A DNA stretch of 64,000 nucleotides, from contig NZ_JAMBNO010000006.1 of the NCBI RefSeq assembly GCF_023715105.1, forward strand, positions 1 through 64,000, read 5' to 3'. The notes under the pieces were generated by a model that saw only the letters and a program-made list of their open reading frames with translations, did not search any database and was not told the DNA's origin. The DNA comes from Hydrogenophaga intermedia. GTDB lineage: Bacteria; Pseudomonadota; Gammaproteobacteria; Burkholderiales; Burkholderiaceae_C. The position numbers and the translations under genes were made by a program. Below are positions 52,966 through 59,349 of this stretch, in pieces (positions within the stretch are counted from its first letter, which is position 1; every line of letters starts with the position of its first letter).

Positions 52966-53820
52966 TCAAGCGGGCCGCACGCCGCGGCATTTCGGGAACT
53001 GTCGACAGCCCCAGAACGACTCGCCCGCCCGGTTGCCTTGCTTGGCCTGCCTGAGCACCATCGCGCCCTTGCAGACGGGGCAGGTCGGCGTTGTGGCCAT
53101 GGCAGGCTCCCGCCGCTCTGCTTCGAAGCCTCGGTGCGATTGCGGCTGGGCGGACTTGCTGACAGCGGCGACCGCCTTGCTCAGTTGCTCGCCGTCGATG
53201 AGGACAATGGGTTTGCCGACCGCAAACTCGATGGCCTCGTGAGTGAACCTTCCCGAAGTCACAACGAAGCCGCCCGCAGCGCCCTCCGCGGTGATGAGGC
53301 CGAACTGTTCGCGTACAACCGACACACCCACACGATAGGTGCGCCACTGCTTGCACTGCACGAGATAGCGCTGCCCCGCCTTGGTTGCGAGCAGGTCAAC
53401 GCCTCCATCGGCGCCTCCGCCGCCGTTCTCGACGACTTGATAGCCCATGCGGTGAAGCGTTTCGCCCACCAGACGCTCGAACTGCGGCCAAGTCATCTGG
53501 TTGAGGCCAGAAGTGCCCGGTGCACTGGCGACCCGCTCAACCAAAGCCGCACCCTCACGGCGCCGTAGAAAGGAGGTGAGTGCGCCCAACAGGAATAGCA
53601 GGGGGACGACGTACTGTCCCGCAACCGCCAGGCCCTTCCAGAGCGAACCGACCATCAGTGAACTCACCTGGTTCGGCTGGACACTCTTTGGCGTTGGCGC
53701 GCTCGCAAATGAGCTGAGCAGCAGATAAGCGACGAGTGCGCACAGAACCGAAACCCACCATGGCAGGCGCGAGATAAGCTGAACCAGTTCGTTGGCTTCT
53801 TTGCGATTTCTTCTTCCCAC
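52966..53820 (-). CDS. Membrane-anchored Mrr-like restriction endonuclease with topoisomerase-type zinc finger
   Basis: A 284-residue protein: two transmembrane helices (22-37, 70-84), an Mrr-type PD-(D/E)XK domain at about 105-215 with E115, D142 and Q155-x-K157 (QCK), and a C-terminal zinc finger (Cys247, Cys250, Cys272, Cys278) as in topoisomerase I. Such REase-zinc-finger proteins are suspected defence or DNA-repair nucleases. GTG 53820 start. It lies 250 bases downstream of the STAND gene, same strand. Confidence 0.85.
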   Translation of the reverse strand: MGRRNRKEANELVQLISRLPWWVSVLCALVAYLLLSSFASAPTPKSVQPNQVSSLMVGSLWKGLAVAGQYVVPLLFLLGALTSFLRRREGAALVERVASAPGTSGLNQMTWPQFERLVGETLHRMGYQVVENGGGGADGGVDLLATKAGQRYLVQCKQWRTYRVGVSVVREQFGLITAEGAAGGFVVTSGRFTHEAIEFAVGKPIVLIDGEQLSKAVAAVSKSAQPQSHRGFEAERREPAMATTPTCPVCKGAMVLRQAKQGNRAGESFWGCRQFPKCRGVRPA

Positions 53821-54072
53821 GTGGACGCTCCCTTGCGCAGCTGTTGAACTGTTCTGACGCCTGAAATGTAGTTGTAGGGCGTCTCAAGTGACGAGTCCGT
53901 GGCCAAAGCTCAGCCAGTGCCCTGAGTTCCTTGAGTGGTGACGCCACTCTATGGGCAGCTGCGCAGCGACTCCAGTCGTTCAGCCGGTCCACCGAGTTCA
54001 CGCTTTCGGCAGGCTACCGGTCACTGACTCGCCCGGACTTGATCCGACGAAAGCCTGCTCCGAGAAGCACGG
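53821..54072. other. Gap with no recognised gene
   Basis: 252 bases between the Mrr-like gene and the STAND gene. Frames are short, and no hairpin-plus-T terminator or clear promoter was found. Confidence 0.5.
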
Positions 54073-56310
54073 CTATCCGCTGACTGGGCCGGTGGACATA
54101 AGCGAGAACATCGACTTGATCTCGGCGTCCGAGATTTCGCCAGCCGCTACCTGCGATCCGGTCTGTTGATATGGATCGCTGTCTTCTTCGCCCTCGCGCA
54201 CTTCGAGAGTCTCGCGGCGACTTTGAATGTCTTGCATCAATGTCGGGCCAATTCGGACGTCATACGTCTTTGCTGCGGAGACAAGCTCTTCGAGGAACGT
54301 TCCGAGTTCTTGAGTGGATGAGATGTCGGAAAGTTTGCCCTCAATTCCACAGATGAGCCCTTGCAGCGCTTTGCGCGCTGAGCTGTGGACCACGCCTTCT
54401 TCCGTCAGTGGCTCAAGTGCGCTAGCAATACTGGTAATGTCGTCGATCGCCAAGTCATCACCAGCATTGGCAAGCATGTTTGCCGCTGCATTTGTCAGGG
54501 CTTCGCGGGCTGGAACAAGAAGTTCATCCGTCCGAAACGGGAGCCGCTTCAACTGCCGCAGAGAAAACAAGCACTCATAGAAATCTCCTGGCTCGATTCC
54601 CTGCAACATCAAATCGTTGACTACCTTGAAAAGAACAGCCTTGATATGGAGACCCGGCAAGTGTTCGCGCATCTCAAGAATGTGCCGCAGTGATGCGATC
54701 GCGGTTGTTCTGTTGTCGCCCTGGACGCGGACCATGGCGGCTAGCCACAGATCCTGTTCGCCGAATTGATCGCGACACTTCGCAATGTTTGTCCTGAAAA
54801 AACTCCATGCGCTTCTGAACTCGTAGATCGTCGAAACGGATCGCACAACGACGGGAAGCAGCTGGTCGTCGATGAAGACACTGCTCAGGAAATCACGAAT
54901 GCCGGGATTCGCGAAGGAAATTTCTTGATCTCCGACCGTAACAAACGATCCGCTCAGTTCCTTCAACCCTGTCCGGAAACGTGAAACTGCATCCGACGAA
55001 GCGATCTGGAACCCTGCGTTTGCGGTGATTCGCTTGAACAGTTGCAGACAGAGATCCATTCCTACATAGGGGCCGGTAAAGAAGGTAGCCCACAACAGAC
55101 ATCTCGCATCTGCGCTCAGGTGCGATCGATACGGCCGCTCCCAGAGTTCCAAAGGGTTGTCCAAAACACGAAGGACAGTGGCCTGGATGGAATCGTCGCC
55201 TACAGAATAGTAGTCTGCGGAAGTCAGCAACTCGATCAAGCGGGGGCTGAAGTTGCGGTGGTCGATCATCGTCAGGAAGAAGTCACCGTCCAGGAGCTTA
55301 GCCTTTTCTTCATCGACCAGATCTGAGAAGTAAATGTGATTGAAGACAACTTTGGCTTTGATGATCCGTGTATAGACCCCAACGTTCAGAATCATTTCGC
55401 TTGCCTCCACTCGTGAAGACGAGAGCTTGTCCGACTGGATCTGCGCTTGGTTGAGCAGGTACAGCCTAGTTGTCAGGATGAAGCGAAGATCCTTGTTGTT
55501 TCGAAGTCGATCCAGGAAAACGGGCAGACGCTGATCCACCTTACCCAACAGCTCGTTGGTCAGACTGATCTGACCCAGGAAATCGTCGAGGAAGATGAGC
55601 CGCTTCTCGCCGGCTGTACTGACGGCCATAGCCTCCTGCAGGTCGTCCACGACAAAGACCTTCCAGTTCTGCTCCATGTGGAGCCAAAGCAGCATGCGGC
55701 CAAGGGTGGTCTTTCCGACACCAGGCTCACCCGTAATGATCAGCGCGCCGCGGTCCTCCAGGATTGCCTCCGCCTCGGCCACACTGGCGTTGTGCACGAA
55801 CTTGGGAACAAGTTGCTTGATGCGGGCCAACTCGGCTTCGGTCCGGTTGTAGACCGCGCTGTGCAAGATTCGCTCAAGGACTTCCGTGCTAGTCAACCAA
55901 AGCTTGAAATGCTGACGCAGCACGTGTGGATGAAGGCCCAGAAGGTTGTTTAGGTCCTCGCGGCCTATGACGTCTCCGGCACTGACCGGCGTGGACGGCA
56001 TCGCTTGAATGATTTTGCGCTTCAGTTCCGGGGTAAGCGATAAGGACGTGACCAGGATGTACCGGCTCGGAGCTAGCTTCAGGACTTTGCTGTCCTCCTT
56101 CATCACTGCCCGAAGAAGGCTTCTTGGCCCGCCCTCCACATGATGTTTGGCCTGCACTACGACATCCTGATCCGCCATAGCGAAGCGGAAGTCGATTCCA
56201 CCATCCTTGCCAGGGCCGAAGCTCTCCATCGTGATGCCCAACTCCGCTTGCAGCAGGTCACGAACGAGCAGTTCGAAATCGATCGGCGACAGAGTGCGAA
56301 AGTCGTACAT
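54073..56310 (-). CDS. PD-(D/E)XK nuclease - STAND NTPase fusion (nSTAND3-like)
   Basis: A 745-residue multidomain protein. Residues 1-60 form a restriction-endonuclease core: E13, FGPGKDGGID with D40, and QAK at 53-55 (VVVQAKHH). A STAND/P-loop NTPase follows with Walker A GEPGVGKT at 195-202 and Walker B LIFLDDF at 239-245, then about 500 residues of helical solenoid typical of sensor domains. This nuclease-STAND order matches anti-phage Avs-like proteins. It lies 4 bases after the AAA_13 gene on the same strand. Low GC relative to neighbours suggests transfer. Confidence 0.85.
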   Translation of the reverse strand: MYDFRTLSPIDFELLVRDLLQAELGITMESFGPGKDGGIDFRFAMADQDVVVQAKHHVEGGPRSLLRAVMKEDSKVLKLAPSRYILVTSLSLTPELKRKIIQAMPSTPVSAGDVIGREDLNNLLGLHPHVLRQHFKLWLTSTEVLERILHSAVYNRTEAELARIKQLVPKFVHNASVAEAEAILEDRGALIITGEPGVGKTTLGRMLLWLHMEQNWKVFVVDDLQEAMAVSTAGEKRLIFLDDFLGQISLTNELLGKVDQRLPVFLDRLRNNKDLRFILTTRLYLLNQAQIQSDKLSSSRVEASEMILNVGVYTRIIKAKVVFNHIYFSDLVDEEKAKLLDGDFFLTMIDHRNFSPRLIELLTSADYYSVGDDSIQATVLRVLDNPLELWERPYRSHLSADARCLLWATFFTGPYVGMDLCLQLFKRITANAGFQIASSDAVSRFRTGLKELSGSFVTVGDQEISFANPGIRDFLSSVFIDDQLLPVVVRSVSTIYEFRSAWSFFRTNIAKCRDQFGEQDLWLAAMVRVQGDNRTTAIASLRHILEMREHLPGLHIKAVLFKVVNDLMLQGIEPGDFYECLFSLRQLKRLPFRTDELLVPAREALTNAAANMLANAGDDLAIDDITSIASALEPLTEEGVVHSSARKALQGLICGIEGKLSDISSTQELGTFLEELVSAAKTYDVRIGPTLMQDIQSRRETLEVREGEEDSDPYQQTGSQVAAGEISDAEIKSMFSLMSTGPVSG

Positions 56311-56314
56311 GTCG

Positions 56315-58579
56315 TCAAGCCTGAGTGGCCGAGATCAGGGAGTCCATATGGCGCTTGTCAGTCTCGGTGATGGCATCTATCAGGTCCTTGACCGCATGCT
56401 CGAGGTCGAAGATCAGTTCGTTGTTTCCGGCGAGCCGGTCCAGCGTGTTGCCGTGGCTGAAGTAATGGAAGATCTTCAGGATCCGCTTCGCACGCTCGAC
56501 ACCGAACAGAATCTCGGCTCGCTCGTCGACTTGTTCCGACTCTTTCGGCCCAGGAAGCCTGGAGTACGTATAGAGTTCGATGAAGCGCCTCATGGCGTTC
56601 GGCAACAGCATCAGTACTTCGTGGACGGTCTTGTCGGGTGCCTTGTAGAAGCGATGGATGACCTCAAACAGGAAATGGTATTCAGACTGATAGCGTGAGA
56701 GCGAGGCCGGCATGTCTTCCAGCGTTGAGGACTTCTCGGCAATCCTTCTGATCAGATATAGCCGCGCTCCTTTGTTGCTCGCCGCTGGCTTGATCTCTCT
56801 GAGCAGGTTGAAGAACTCGAAGTTGTGCGTGGAGATGAAAAGTTGCTTGCAGGTGGTCTGCCAAGGCGCGTTCTTGTCCTGCTGCTTGAAGAACAGCGCT
56901 CGGATGGCGGCGGTCACCTGAAAGATGTGATTGGCGTCGAGACTTGAGATGGGATCGTCGATGTAGACGATGGTCTCCTTGAATTCCGCGGGCTTGATTT
57001 CCTGTAGCTTTGTCAGGAAGTACGAGAAGGCAATGGCCGTTCGCTCTCCGTCGCTCAGGTTCTTAGCAACGGTCCCCGTCTTCCGGACTAGTTGAAAGCG
57101 GTCCTGGCCAGCCGCATCTTTGACGACCTGGATCTGAACGGCCTCGCTTCCCAGCATGGATGCCAGGCGTTCGTTTATCTTTTCCCGGCCTTGTTGTGCC
57201 TGACTGATCTGAGCCTGAAGACTACTGATCTCCGGCCGTACCCTTGCAGCATAGGCTTTCAGACGTTCGGACCGATTGGCGAGTCGAGTCTTCTTTTGCT
57301 CCAGGCCGGTGGTAGCTTGGTCGTCAACGAATTGCTGGACGTAGTGGTATCGGGCCTGTCTCGAAGCATCGGCTCTGGCCTTCGTGAAGTTCGAGGCCAA
57401 CTCGTTGTTTTGCTTGATGACGAGGTTGACTGCGGCAGCGGCGTCCTTGATACCCTTTTCGAGGCCAGCAGCCAATGGCGTAGGCGTCATGGCCTTGCGG
57501 GGGTCATCCGCCTTGCGTTGCACTTCGTCTGCGAGTTTCCTTGCAGCTTGGTTGAATGCGTCGATGGCTGCGGGCAGCGCTTCAATGGCGGCGGTATAGG
57601 CTCCACGAAACTGAGCATTGAGTTCGGCTGCCTTGGGCCAACTCAGGCTGAAAACAGCCTCCTTCACACGCGCAAGAAGTCCATCCACCAGCTCCTTGTG
57701 GTCAGCCAGATCCTTCGAAAAGTGCACACGAAACGCTTCGAGGCGATCCTGGGATAGATCGTTTCCGCAGAACTCGCACGTTCCCGCGCCAGTGTGTAGG
57801 TTCAGGCCGCCGTGGACCCAGCGCTCAACGGCGGGATTCTCCTCAAGGTGTTTGATCGTGTTGGAGAAGCTCGGCGTTGCTGCCAGAACTGTTACGGCTT
57901 CCTTGTGGAGATCCTCGATCGACGGAGCAGCGCACAGTTCCTCCACCGTACTCGGCTTCTTGGAGTCAGGGGTCAGCGCGAGTTCGACGGCATCAGCGAG
58001 TTCCTTCTCCGAAAGAAACTGGGAGTCAAGAACGCCGACTGCGACGATGTCCTGGGCGAGATGTGTGGCCGTGTAGGGGTCAACCTTCAGATGTTGGCGG
58101 ATGAACTTCGCAGTCTCGGTCTTGGCCTGCGCGATCCGCATCTTCAGTTCTTCGAACGTGCCGTCCAGTTTGCGCTGGACCTCCTCCGAGCGCTTGATCC
58201 GCTTGCTTAGCGCATCGATCTTCCTTTGGGCTTCCTCGGATTCCTTGCCGAGCAGCAGGATGGGGTTGAAGTTCCCGCCATCGAAGTGCAGATTGGCGCG
58301 GACGAAGTCCGAATTGAAGACCCGAACAGACAGATTGCACCGACTGAAGTTTTTCTCTGTGATCGAATCATCGGTAGTACCAAGCGTGAATTCGCATCCG
58401 GATAAATCTGGATTGGCCGCTTTGGTTTCAAGCTGAGCGAACAGTCGGGACAGGGTGGTCTTCCCGGAATAGTTCCAGCCGTAGATGAGATTCTTGATCC
58501 CGAAGTCGTGCGTGCCAGCGGGCTTGCTATAGCTTTGATAGACGCCGAGTCCCTTGATCTTCTCGATGCTCTTCAGCAT
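56315..58579 (-). CDS. AAA_13 ATPase, PrrC/RloC-like, with CxxC hook
   Basis: A 754-residue SMC/ABC-like ATPase. Walker A GWNYSGKTT at 34-42, long coiled coils, a CxxC pair Cys268-Cys271 (CEFCGND) that could form a zinc hook between two subunits, the signature LSDGE (508-512), Walker B IVYIDD (537-542) and His loop STHN. C-terminal candidate nuclease residues: R664, E668, and H705 or H709, resembling the R-E-H triad of anticodon nucleases. No hsdRMS genes accompany it; its partner is the STAND gene 4 bases downstream. Confidence 0.85.
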   Translation of the reverse strand: MLKSIEKIKGLGVYQSYSKPAGTHDFGIKNLIYGWNYSGKTTLSRLFAQLETKAANPDLSGCEFTLGTTDDSITEKNFSRCNLSVRVFNSDFVRANLHFDGGNFNPILLLGKESEEAQRKIDALSKRIKRSEEVQRKLDGTFEELKMRIAQAKTETAKFIRQHLKVDPYTATHLAQDIVAVGVLDSQFLSEKELADAVELALTPDSKKPSTVEELCAAPSIEDLHKEAVTVLAATPSFSNTIKHLEENPAVERWVHGGLNLHTGAGTCEFCGNDLSQDRLEAFRVHFSKDLADHKELVDGLLARVKEAVFSLSWPKAAELNAQFRGAYTAAIEALPAAIDAFNQAARKLADEVQRKADDPRKAMTPTPLAAGLEKGIKDAAAAVNLVIKQNNELASNFTKARADASRQARYHYVQQFVDDQATTGLEQKKTRLANRSERLKAYAARVRPEISSLQAQISQAQQGREKINERLASMLGSEAVQIQVVKDAAGQDRFQLVRKTGTVAKNLSDGERTAIAFSYFLTKLQEIKPAEFKETIVYIDDPISSLDANHIFQVTAAIRALFFKQQDKNAPWQTTCKQLFISTHNFEFFNLLREIKPAASNKGARLYLIRRIAEKSSTLEDMPASLSRYQSEYHFLFEVIHRFYKAPDKTVHEVLMLLPNAMRRFIELYTYSRLPGPKESEQVDERAEILFGVERAKRILKIFHYFSHGNTLDRLAGNNELIFDLEHAVKDLIDAITETDKRHMDSLISATQA

Positions 58580-58707
58580 GTCTTCTCTCTGATATTGGAC
58601 TCAAGACTACCGAAATCGTCTGGAGACCCCACGTTGCGAAAGTGAAGGTTCGCTTCATGAGCTGTGCCAATGTTCATTGTGTACCGGCGAGCGTCGCACA
58701 CCAGTCT

Positions 58708-59349
58708 TCATCGGTCATTCTCGATCACCGACCCCGCCAGCTTCGCTGCCAACACGCCCATCATGACTCCAGACAGCCTGTCAATCCACACTTTGCAGCG
58801 CACATAGACAGCCTGAGCGCCGTCAGACGAGAGAATCAAGGCGACAGTCGCGTACCAGCCTGCCTCGATGGCAAACACCAGTATGGCCACCAGTAGGTGG
58901 AACTCGATGCCGGGCGAGGAGGGAAGCAGCGCCGCAAAGACGCTGGCGTAGACGATGACGGTCTTGGGATTGCTGATCTGGGTGAAGAAGCCAAGCAAAA
59001 AGTGTCGCGTCGACGCAGTCGAGCGTCCGGTCGACAAGGGGATCTGGATCTCCAGCGGCTGTTTGGCGCCTTGCCAAAGCCGGAACGCGAGATAGCCGAG
59101 GTAGGCCGCTCCTGCCAGCTTCAACGCGGCGAAAACCTTGGGCGCTGCGGCGAGTGTTGCGCTCAGCCCGAGCAGAGCGCCCACAGCAAAGATCAGGCCA
59201 CCCAGTCCCATGCCCAGCGCCGCTTGCAAGCCCGCGCGCCGGCCACCCGACGCTGCTGACCGCGCGACCATGATGAAACTGGGTCCTGGGCTGGCGGCTC
59301 CGATGAGCAGGGCGATGCCGATGGCAAGCAACGAGGCGGCTTCATTCAT
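58708..59349 (-). CDS. LysE/RhtB-family amino-acid exporter
   Basis: A 213-residue inner-membrane exporter with about 6 helices. The motif GAASPGPSFIMVARSAASGG (family G-x-x-x-PGP) and LGYLAFRLW are typical, as is FFTQISNPKTVIVYASVFAA. ATG 59349 is used; the frame extends upstream without natural protein. Likely exports a basic or neutral amino acid or homoserine-lactone-like compound. It opens the metabolic block after the defence genes. Confidence 0.92.
   Translation of the reverse strand: MNEAASLLAIGIALLIGAASPGPSFIMVARSAASGGRRAGLQAALGMGLGGLIFAVGALLGLSATLAAAPKVFAALKLAGAAYLGYLAFRLWQGAKQPLEIQIPLSTGRSTASTRHFLLGFFTQISNPKTVIVYASVFAALLPSSPGIEFHLLVAILVFAIEAGWYATVALILSSDGAQAVYVRCKVWIDRLSGVMMGVLAAKLAGSVIENDR

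Follow-up and report, generated by a model that had tools for sequence, protein, structure and literature searches.

Two adjacent genes on a contig of Hydrogenophaga intermedia (NZ_JAMBNO010000006.1, of which we analysed the first 64,000 nucleotides, hereafter the window) were proposed in an initial annotation, made from the sequence alone, to be a two-gene candidate defence unit combining an ATPase similar to the anticodon nucleases PrrC and RloC with a nuclease-STAND fusion protein. Are these two genes a unit or chance neighbours, what does each encode, and how might their products act together? The proposal of a candidate defence unit is upheld by three findings described below: the adjacency recurs in other genomes, the nuclease residues are conserved, and the genome yields no HsdR match.

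Organization of the locus

Both genes lie on the minus strand, with 4 nt between the stop codon of gene 1 and the start codon of gene 2 (Table 1). The gene pair has a GC content of 0.555; the value is 0.638 for about 15 kb of adjoining DNA and 0.657 for the rest of the window. The spacing, common strand and lowered GC content are thus as first described. The accompanying statement that hsd genes are absent holds for HsdR, to which our check was confined: the HSDR_N profile found no match in the whole genome (a 4.65-Mb assembly of 150 contigs with an estimated contamination of 4.97%), and the control matched in nine of 14 genomes.

Table 1. Positions in the window of the two genes, their domains and motifs, and the block shared with other genomes.
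Feature	Position	Strand	Size, basis or remark
RloC-type anticodon nuclease gene (gene 1; AAA_13 / PDC-S06)	56315..58579	-	754 aa; Pfam, PADLOC
Walker A, gene 1 residues 34-41, GWNYSGKT	58457..58480	-	motif reading
CxxC zinc-hook motif, gene 1 residues 268-271, CEFC	57767..57778	-	C268 and C271 invariant in 21/21 rows of alignment A4
ABC signature LSDGE, gene 1 residues 508-512	57044..57058	-	MSDGE in three paired relatives
Walker B / D-loop, gene 1 residues 538-548, VYIDDPISSLD	56936..56968	-	motif and alignment; DDP = 541-543
Putative anticodon-nuclease triad region, R664-x3-E668-x40-H709	56453..56590	-	published RloC motif; R, E and H invariant in 21/21 rows of A4
Mrr-nSTAND3 protein gene (gene 2; PDC-S73)	54073..56310	-	745 aa; Pfam, PADLOC, Foldseek
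Mrr-type PD-(D/E)XK nuclease domain, gene 2 residues 5-93; E13, D40, Q53, K55	56032..56298	-	Pfam, alignments
nSTAND3 NTPase domain, gene 2 residues 171-328; P-loop 194-201, DD 242-243	55327..55800	-	Pfam, alignments, structural comparison
C-terminal helical region, presumed sensor, gene 2 residues 505-740	54091..54798	-	helical in model; sensor role inferred
Largest block shared with other genomes	53954..58708	-	blastn; includes about 128 nt upstream of the RloC start codon and about 119 nt downstream of the STAND stop codon

Gene 1 resembles RloC rather than PrrC

The product of gene 1 matches Pfam AAA_13 across residues 19-715 (E 4e-129) and the PADLOC 2023 model PDC-S06 (E 3e-140). RloC is defined, in the available text of Davidov and Kaufmann (PMC2610378), as a protein of 658-897 aa with an ABC ATPase split by a CxxC zinc-hook coiled coil, and its C-terminal triad is given there as R-x3-E-x36-52-H, often with a Ser before the His. 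Every motif read in the initial annotation is present in gene 1 (GWNYSGKT, DDP, LSDGE, CEFC and R664/E668/H709), the switch His in STH585 completes the ABC motif set formed with Walker A, the signature and Walker B, and S708 precedes the triad H709. The alignment used for these residues (A4) comprises 21 rows from paired and solo copies and leaves out the fused and the internally deleted copies described below (L031 and L028). Judged by the published sequence features, gene 1 is an RloC-type protein and not PrrC. Of the original description as PrrC/RloC-like, then, the RloC half stands on the CxxC insert and the triad spacing, and we rejected the PrrC half: gene 1 has 754 aa against 341-416 aa for PrrC, the zinc-hook insert is present, the best PADLOC PrrC match spans residues 506-623 only, and linkage to type I restriction-modification (R-M) is not seen, there being no HSDR_N match in the genome. 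By analogy with its relatives gene 1 would be predicted to cleave tRNA anticodons, with DNA ends as the activator.

The nuclease domains of PrrC and RloC are HEPN domains in the account given by the available text of PMC3710099. At the position that presumably corresponds to the HEPN-motif arginine, by our own reading of A4, ten of the 21 rows carry Arg, ten carry Lys (the window's K702 among them) and one carries Asn.

The predicted structure of gene 1 (mean pLDDT 81.5, pTM 0.50) has long helices at residues 107-164, 373-424 and 426-476. Whole-chain TM-scores were low, with Rad50 ranking first (TMq 0.22). In a second structural comparison, which barely covered the chain past residue 634, the top place was shared by Rad50 heads (Z 17.2, rmsd 6.4, 311 residues aligned, all lying in residues 1-630) and cohesin SMC3 heads (Z 17.1). 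No solved structure matched gene 1 by sequence in phmmer; a profile of gene 1 compared with solved structures gave a best E of 0.028, to coiled coils of another kind, and residues 251-307 gave a marginal profile match to the Rad50 hook (E 0.086). Since the second structural comparison barely reached them, the HEPN fold of gene 1 and the Mrr fold of gene 2 are assigned from sequence.

Gene 2 combines an Mrr nuclease, an nSTAND3 NTPase and a helical C-terminus

Gene 2 has the architecture of a nuclease, a STAND NTPase and a C-terminal helical region, with Pfam matches to Mrr_cat (residues 5-93, E 2e-7) and nSTAND3 (residues 171-328, E 9e-38) and a match to the PADLOC 2023 model PDC-S73 (E 7e-129); none of the PADLOC 2023 Avs models matched at E up to 1. 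Two alignments, A3 with 11 rows and A5 with 19 rows (L028, L031 and L004 being left out of A5), agree on invariant residues in the nuclease domain (G34, D36, G38, D40, Q53 and K55) and in the NTPase domain (G194, G197, G199 and K200 of the P-loop and D242-D243); E13 is fully conserved in A3 and almost so in A5. The PD-(D/E)XK core that had been recognised from D40 and the QAK motif is therefore conserved, with D40, Q53 and K55 kept in every row of both alignments, and the P-loop and long helical region noted at the same time correspond to the nSTAND3 match and to a C-terminus that is helical in the model. Residues 505-740 diverge fast: in a tblastn search of plasmids, two of 48 records reached at least 80% query coverage, both of them from Sinorhizobium numidicum. 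This C-terminus is presumably the sensor.

In Foldseek the leading matches to the predicted structure (pLDDT 81.2, pTM 0.67) were Avs5, portal-bound Avs4, a second Avs5 filament, SAMD9 and further STAND proteins, with low whole-chain scores (Avs5, TMq 0.30, rmsd 19.6; Avs4, TMq 0.38, rmsd 13.6). The second structural comparison, which for gene 2 mainly tests residues 145-508, ranked plant NLRs first (RPP1, Z 16.9, rmsd 4.3, 297 aligned), followed by archaeal ATPases and CED-4 (Z about 14-16), general AAA+ ATPases (about 13) and Avs5 (Z 12.4, rmsd 11.2, 430 aligned). Against solved structures phmmer gave one chance-level match (E 0.75), and a profile search matched mainly the P-loop regions of varied ATPases (best E 9.6e-6). 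Gene 2 is thus predicted to encode an Mrr nuclease domain, an nSTAND3 NTPase and a helical region in one chain, and its model is similar to those of Avs and NLR sensors.

The Mrr region has relatives in other contexts. Residues 1-184 match the PADLOC 'Aga' TIR (E 7e-41) and REase-TIR (E 4e-29) models as well as TIR-domain proteins on rhizobial plasmids; we take the 'Aga' models to be those associated with short Argonautes.

The gene pair recurs in Burkholderiales

The initial annotation had suggested looking for recurring adjacency in other genomes. A pattern-based scan of 84,980 species genomes, which reaches close relatives of the alignment and from which the window's own genome was possibly left out, gave 95 candidate stretches and nine confirmed loci. 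Rows L021 and L022 were dropped as duplicates of the Comamonas testosteroni (L030) and Limnohabitans (L029) loci. Six of the nine carry a full-length close STAND gene, all in Burkholderiales (Limnohabitans, Comamonas testosteroni, Variovorax, Polaromonas, a Burkholderiales MAG and a Hydrogenophaga MAG), and in all six an RloC frame lies directly upstream of it. STAND identity across all pairs of these loci and the window is 73-92%. The other three loci hold STAND fragments in which no RloC was detected (L034 and L036) and a distant solo gene (L035), and are not counted as intact close STAND genes.

RloC is full length and separate in four of the six loci, fused in one and internally deleted in one. 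In Variovorax (L031) RloC and STAND form one 1479-aa frame that keeps the RloC triad and is missing the last 37 RloC residues; the fusion stems from a 94-nt difference in one genome and may be incidental. In the Hydrogenophaga MAG (L028) RloC is reduced to 267 aa, possibly through an assembly fault, and STAND is retained. The stop-to-start spacing is 4 nt at every locus but the fused one (the window, L028, L029, L030, L032 and L033); at L032 the longest open STAND frame starts earlier, and it is the homologous start that lies at 4 nt.

A sample of 299 genomes from the window's own family contained a close STAND gene in three, the window included, and a close RloC gene in the same three. The close-relative scan of viral contigs gave 18 candidates, none of them confirmed; a wider scan found 14 distant loci (25-35%), and two of 50,697 phage records gave a match. 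Because the bicistron recurs in other genera and in different surroundings, the pair is more than chance; the two genes are a recurring unit that travels between related bacteria.

The pair lies in a block that has moved between genomic backgrounds

The window shares with these loci a block of up to about 4.75 kb that is set in different flanks. Its left edge is farthest from RloC in L028, L030 and L033, about 128 nt ahead of the start codon; the corresponding distances are 56 nt in L029, 39 nt in L032 and 3 nt in L031. On the other side, similarity extends 110-119 nt beyond the STAND stop codon in L028, L030 and the remnant L034, and in L029, L033, L031 and L032 it ends at or just before that codon. 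When 12 kb of the window were compared with these loci, a 47-nt match in L032 was the sole similarity past the block edges. We saw no recombinase gene within the block and, by eye, no terminal inverted repeat at its ends. A search for empty sites, run without a positive control, matched the flanking DNA in none of seven congeners. The block has moved between genomic backgrounds.

Several neighbours of the block were recorded. The left neighbour in Comamonas testosteroni (L030, 3300-4600) is multi-copy DNA with eight matches in that genome, which we read as IS-like. In L029 and L033 (9300-9875 in each) a gene for a 191-aa T5orf172/MUG113 protein, presumably of GIY-YIG type, lies 61 nt downstream of STAND, and the two loci stay mutually similar through it; the Pfam assignment was made on L022, which duplicates L029. 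In the window a separate Mrr nuclease gene with a topoisomerase-type zinc ribbon, at 52966-53820 on the minus strand, follows closely after the block (Pfam Mrr_cat, E 7e-31; weaker PADLOC matches to PDC-S02, mREase_IV and ZorD). We rejected this gene as a third component; it is outside the shared block, and among 16 loci it had one weak match (94 alignment columns, 31%), in Limnohabitans (L022/L029).

The two families are mostly separate outside the paired clade

Beyond the clade of paired copies, an AAA_13-type neighbour was found at two of 37 STAND-family loci (23 genome or plasmid, 14 viral), a count that keeps every locus, including the shorter frames L071, L072 and L132 and the two matched mainly in the N-terminal region (L081 and L082). 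The nearest full-length STAND seen outside the clade, in Sinorhizobium numidicum, is 41% identical over its full length and has a different AAA_13-type ATPase 55 nt upstream. Genome L023 shows reversed gene order, with a distant STAND (22%) and RloC in pieces at two contig ends (L090 and L093). Conversely, the STAND gene is absent within the available DNA at all 32 RloC-family loci, eight of which are genome loci with short flanks (one of them, L090, being the place in L023), and some of which are viral contigs that end near the gene. RloC relatives standing without STAND include a 66%-identical copy on a Pseudomonas plasmid (one of three such records) and copies on the viral contigs L107, L108 and L120. 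Outside the clade, then, the RloC and STAND families are mostly separate.

Some of these loci have further features. On the Pseudomonas plasmid Rms139 (L002, 576-8259) the 66%-identical RloC gene follows an integrase, a hypothetical, an integrase and a hypothetical gene. On a Sphingorhabdus plasmid (L006, 3480-7268) a STAND-family gene has a Fic-domain gene 3 nt upstream, and in L075 (6040-10145) another is followed after 29 nt by an OLD-like AAA_15 + TOPRIM gene, each arrangement being seen once. STAND nucleases may pair with several ABC-type nucleases.

This separateness bears on the main rival reading, a real possibility in our view, if an improbable one on balance: the two are independent solo defence genes, co-transcribed and co-mobilised, whose effects would add without mutual signalling, RloC answering DNA damage and STAND acting as an Avs-like suicide nuclease. 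The 35 of 37 non-clade STAND-family loci that have no AAA_13-type neighbour in the available DNA fit this, as do the plasmid and viral RloC relatives just listed, the separate PADLOC candidate models for the two genes and the persistence of each gene alone (L106 and L028; see below). Against it, loci with different flanks and with STAND proteins that are 73-92% identical all retain the 4-nt gap, both genes are under purifying selection, and the S. numidicum STAND, too, sits beside an AAA_13-type ATPase.

Selection, shared history and apparent loss of either gene

Pairwise dN/dS was 0.07-0.14 for RloC (15 pairs) and 0.07-0.20 for STAND (21 pairs), and both genes are thus under purifying selection. 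A tree of 18 RloC proteins, with midpoint rooting only and a long-branch warning for its outer rows, joins the RloC of a viral contig (L106, 77% identical) to that of Polaromonas, within the paired clade (99/99). No STAND was found in the 4 kb downstream of this intact RloC. The contig still matches through the 4-nt gap, the start codon of STAND and the bases just after it, where the similarity ends; because the gap and start codon remain ahead of that point, we read L106 as a case of STAND loss with RloC kept, and this in-clade RloC appears to have lost its partner. Since L106 groups with Polaromonas, two changes of state are required to account for the six paired RloC copies. Their pairing with STAND looks like the outcome of one joining event in Burkholderiales, either gene can outlive the other (L106 and L028), and the coupling of RloC with STAND is real and not obligate.

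L106 weighs on two other explanations. By the logic of PrrC and EcoprrI, STAND would bind and silence the RloC-type nuclease, and phage interference with STAND would release tRNA cleavage. A linked restriction enzyme does silence PrrC in the available texts of PMC2610378 and PMC3710099, and the operon order, the 4-nt gap and the one fusion are compatible with contact between the products. Yet RloC is intact in L106, where STAND is missing, and no STAND accompanies other RloC relatives in the available DNA, so STAND does not seem to be needed to restrain RloC; moreover, RloC is reportedly controlled by its own ATPase and not by an R-M protein (available text of PMC3874168). We demoted this toxin-antitoxin or silencer reading on the strength of L106 and consider it unlikely. 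More improbable still, in our estimation, is a role outside defence, for example in the DNA-damage response or as an addiction module that stabilises a mobile element. The movement of the block and the response of RloC to DNA breaks in uninfected cells (described in the same text) would suit such a role, but both families match PADLOC defence-candidate models, and because either gene can be lost without the other they are ill suited to be an addiction pair.

A possible two-tier response

The reading that we prefer, and to which we give a little less than an even chance, is that the locus is a mobile phage-defence cassette whose two nuclease arms are probably co-translated and in which DNA breaks made by gene 2 activate gene 1. 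Gene 2 would be the sensor, its STAND NTPase and helical C-terminus detecting a phage component; it would then oligomerise, activating the N-terminal Mrr domain to cut DNA. Through its Rad50-like ATPase and zinc hook, gene 1 would detect DNA ends and free its C-terminal HEPN nuclease to cleave tRNA anticodons and stop translation. Breakage of DNA by gene 2, or by the phage itself, would in this way bring in gene 1 as a second tier. Beyond the domain assignments we infer the whole of this mechanism, and the causal relay from gene 2 to gene 1 purely so.

Some of its parts have parallels in relatives. Phage-protein sensing by gene 2 would follow the example of Avs4, of which a structure bound to a phage portal has been solved (by the title of the entry). 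Cleavage of tRNA and activation by double-strand breaks may likewise be expected of gene 1 by analogy: in the available text of PMC3874168, RloC is activated and sustained by linear DNA, and an inducer of double-strand breaks activates it in its natural host even when that host is R-M-deficient. The available part of one survey (PMC12322248) names a trigger for RloC different from that of the relay, the inactivation of type I R-M by phage, a statement left untested there. Within our own data, the cassette relay is favoured by the RloC features of gene 1, the conserved Mrr and STAND residues, the likeness of the gene 2 model to Avs5, Avs4 and NLR NTPases, the RloC sequence ahead of STAND in all six loci, the 4-nt spacing kept in all but the fused one, the different flanks of the block, purifying selection on both genes, the single Variovorax frame and the ATPase neighbour of STAND in S. 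numidicum. Against it speak K702 at the presumed HEPN-motif arginine in the window's sub-clade, the non-obligate coupling (L106 and L028), the rarity of AAA_13-type neighbours outside the clade (two of 37 loci), the apparent single joining event, the possibly incidental Variovorax fusion and the low whole-chain structural scores.

A stricter version, which we think rather doubtful, is a hard-wired relay from DNA breaks to tRNA, in which phage-protein sensing, DNA cleavage and translation arrest are set in series in one operon and the Variovorax fusion would be its single-chain form. The 2013 study of RloC control, as far as its available text goes, showed activation by DNA ends and left open both the source of those ends during infection and any partner protein (PMC3874168). 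If the relay exists, the phage-activated DNA cutter encoded in cis by the same operon would explain where the RloC-activating ends come from, and gene 2 would be an Avs-type sensor whose DNA cutting is a signal as well as an end point.

Comparison with known systems

The initial annotation did not recognise the pairing, and nor, within its reach, did the literature: no pairing of RloC or an anticodon nuclease with a STAND or Avs protein was found in the titles and abstract starts of matching papers, a scope outside which fall most subscription papers and all preprints. The available text of PMC3710099 gives R-M, RhuM-like and Fic/Doc genes as the neighbours of PrrC and RloC, and its mentions of STAND and Mrr concern other HEPN families. 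PDC-S73 was not found by name in the available text of literature matching nSTAND3 or the PDC names (including PMC11514479 and PMC12931631). Within that scope we found no precedent for the combination of RloC with an Mrr-STAND protein, both component families being already known. PADLOC likewise treats the genes under separate models, PDC-S06 for gene 1 and PDC-S73 for gene 2, and the pairing is in neither label; we presume that the 'S' in these names denotes single-gene systems.

With RloC of Geobacillus kaustophilus and Acinetobacter baylyi, gene 1 shares the 658-897 aa size range, the CxxC-split ABC ATPase and the triad, and it differs in carrying Lys at the presumed HEPN-motif arginine. 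Known members are rarely R-M-linked (8/72 in the available text of PMC2610378) and sometimes lie beside RhuM-like or Fic/Doc genes (available text of PMC3710099), whereas the partner of gene 1 is a STAND nuclease. PrrC-EcoprrI offers the same two-tier logic, with an ABC-ATPase/HEPN anticodon nuclease beside a DNA-cutting partner; here, however, the partner is not a type I R-M system, the genome holds no HsdR match, and gene 1 is about twice the size of PrrC and has a zinc hook.

The original label of gene 2 as Avs-like was right in part. Avs4, whose domain make-up we take to be Mrr-STAND, and Avs5 (SIR2-nSTAND3) are its top Foldseek matches, and all three share the layout of an effector, a STAND NTPase and a helical C-terminus, gene 2 following Avs4 in domain order and Avs5 in NTPase type. 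Its 745 aa are about half the length of the Avs4 chains (1534-1541), and no Avs model of PADLOC 2023 matched it at E up to 1. Unlike either of them, gene 2 joins Mrr to nSTAND3 and has an RloC-type gene alongside.
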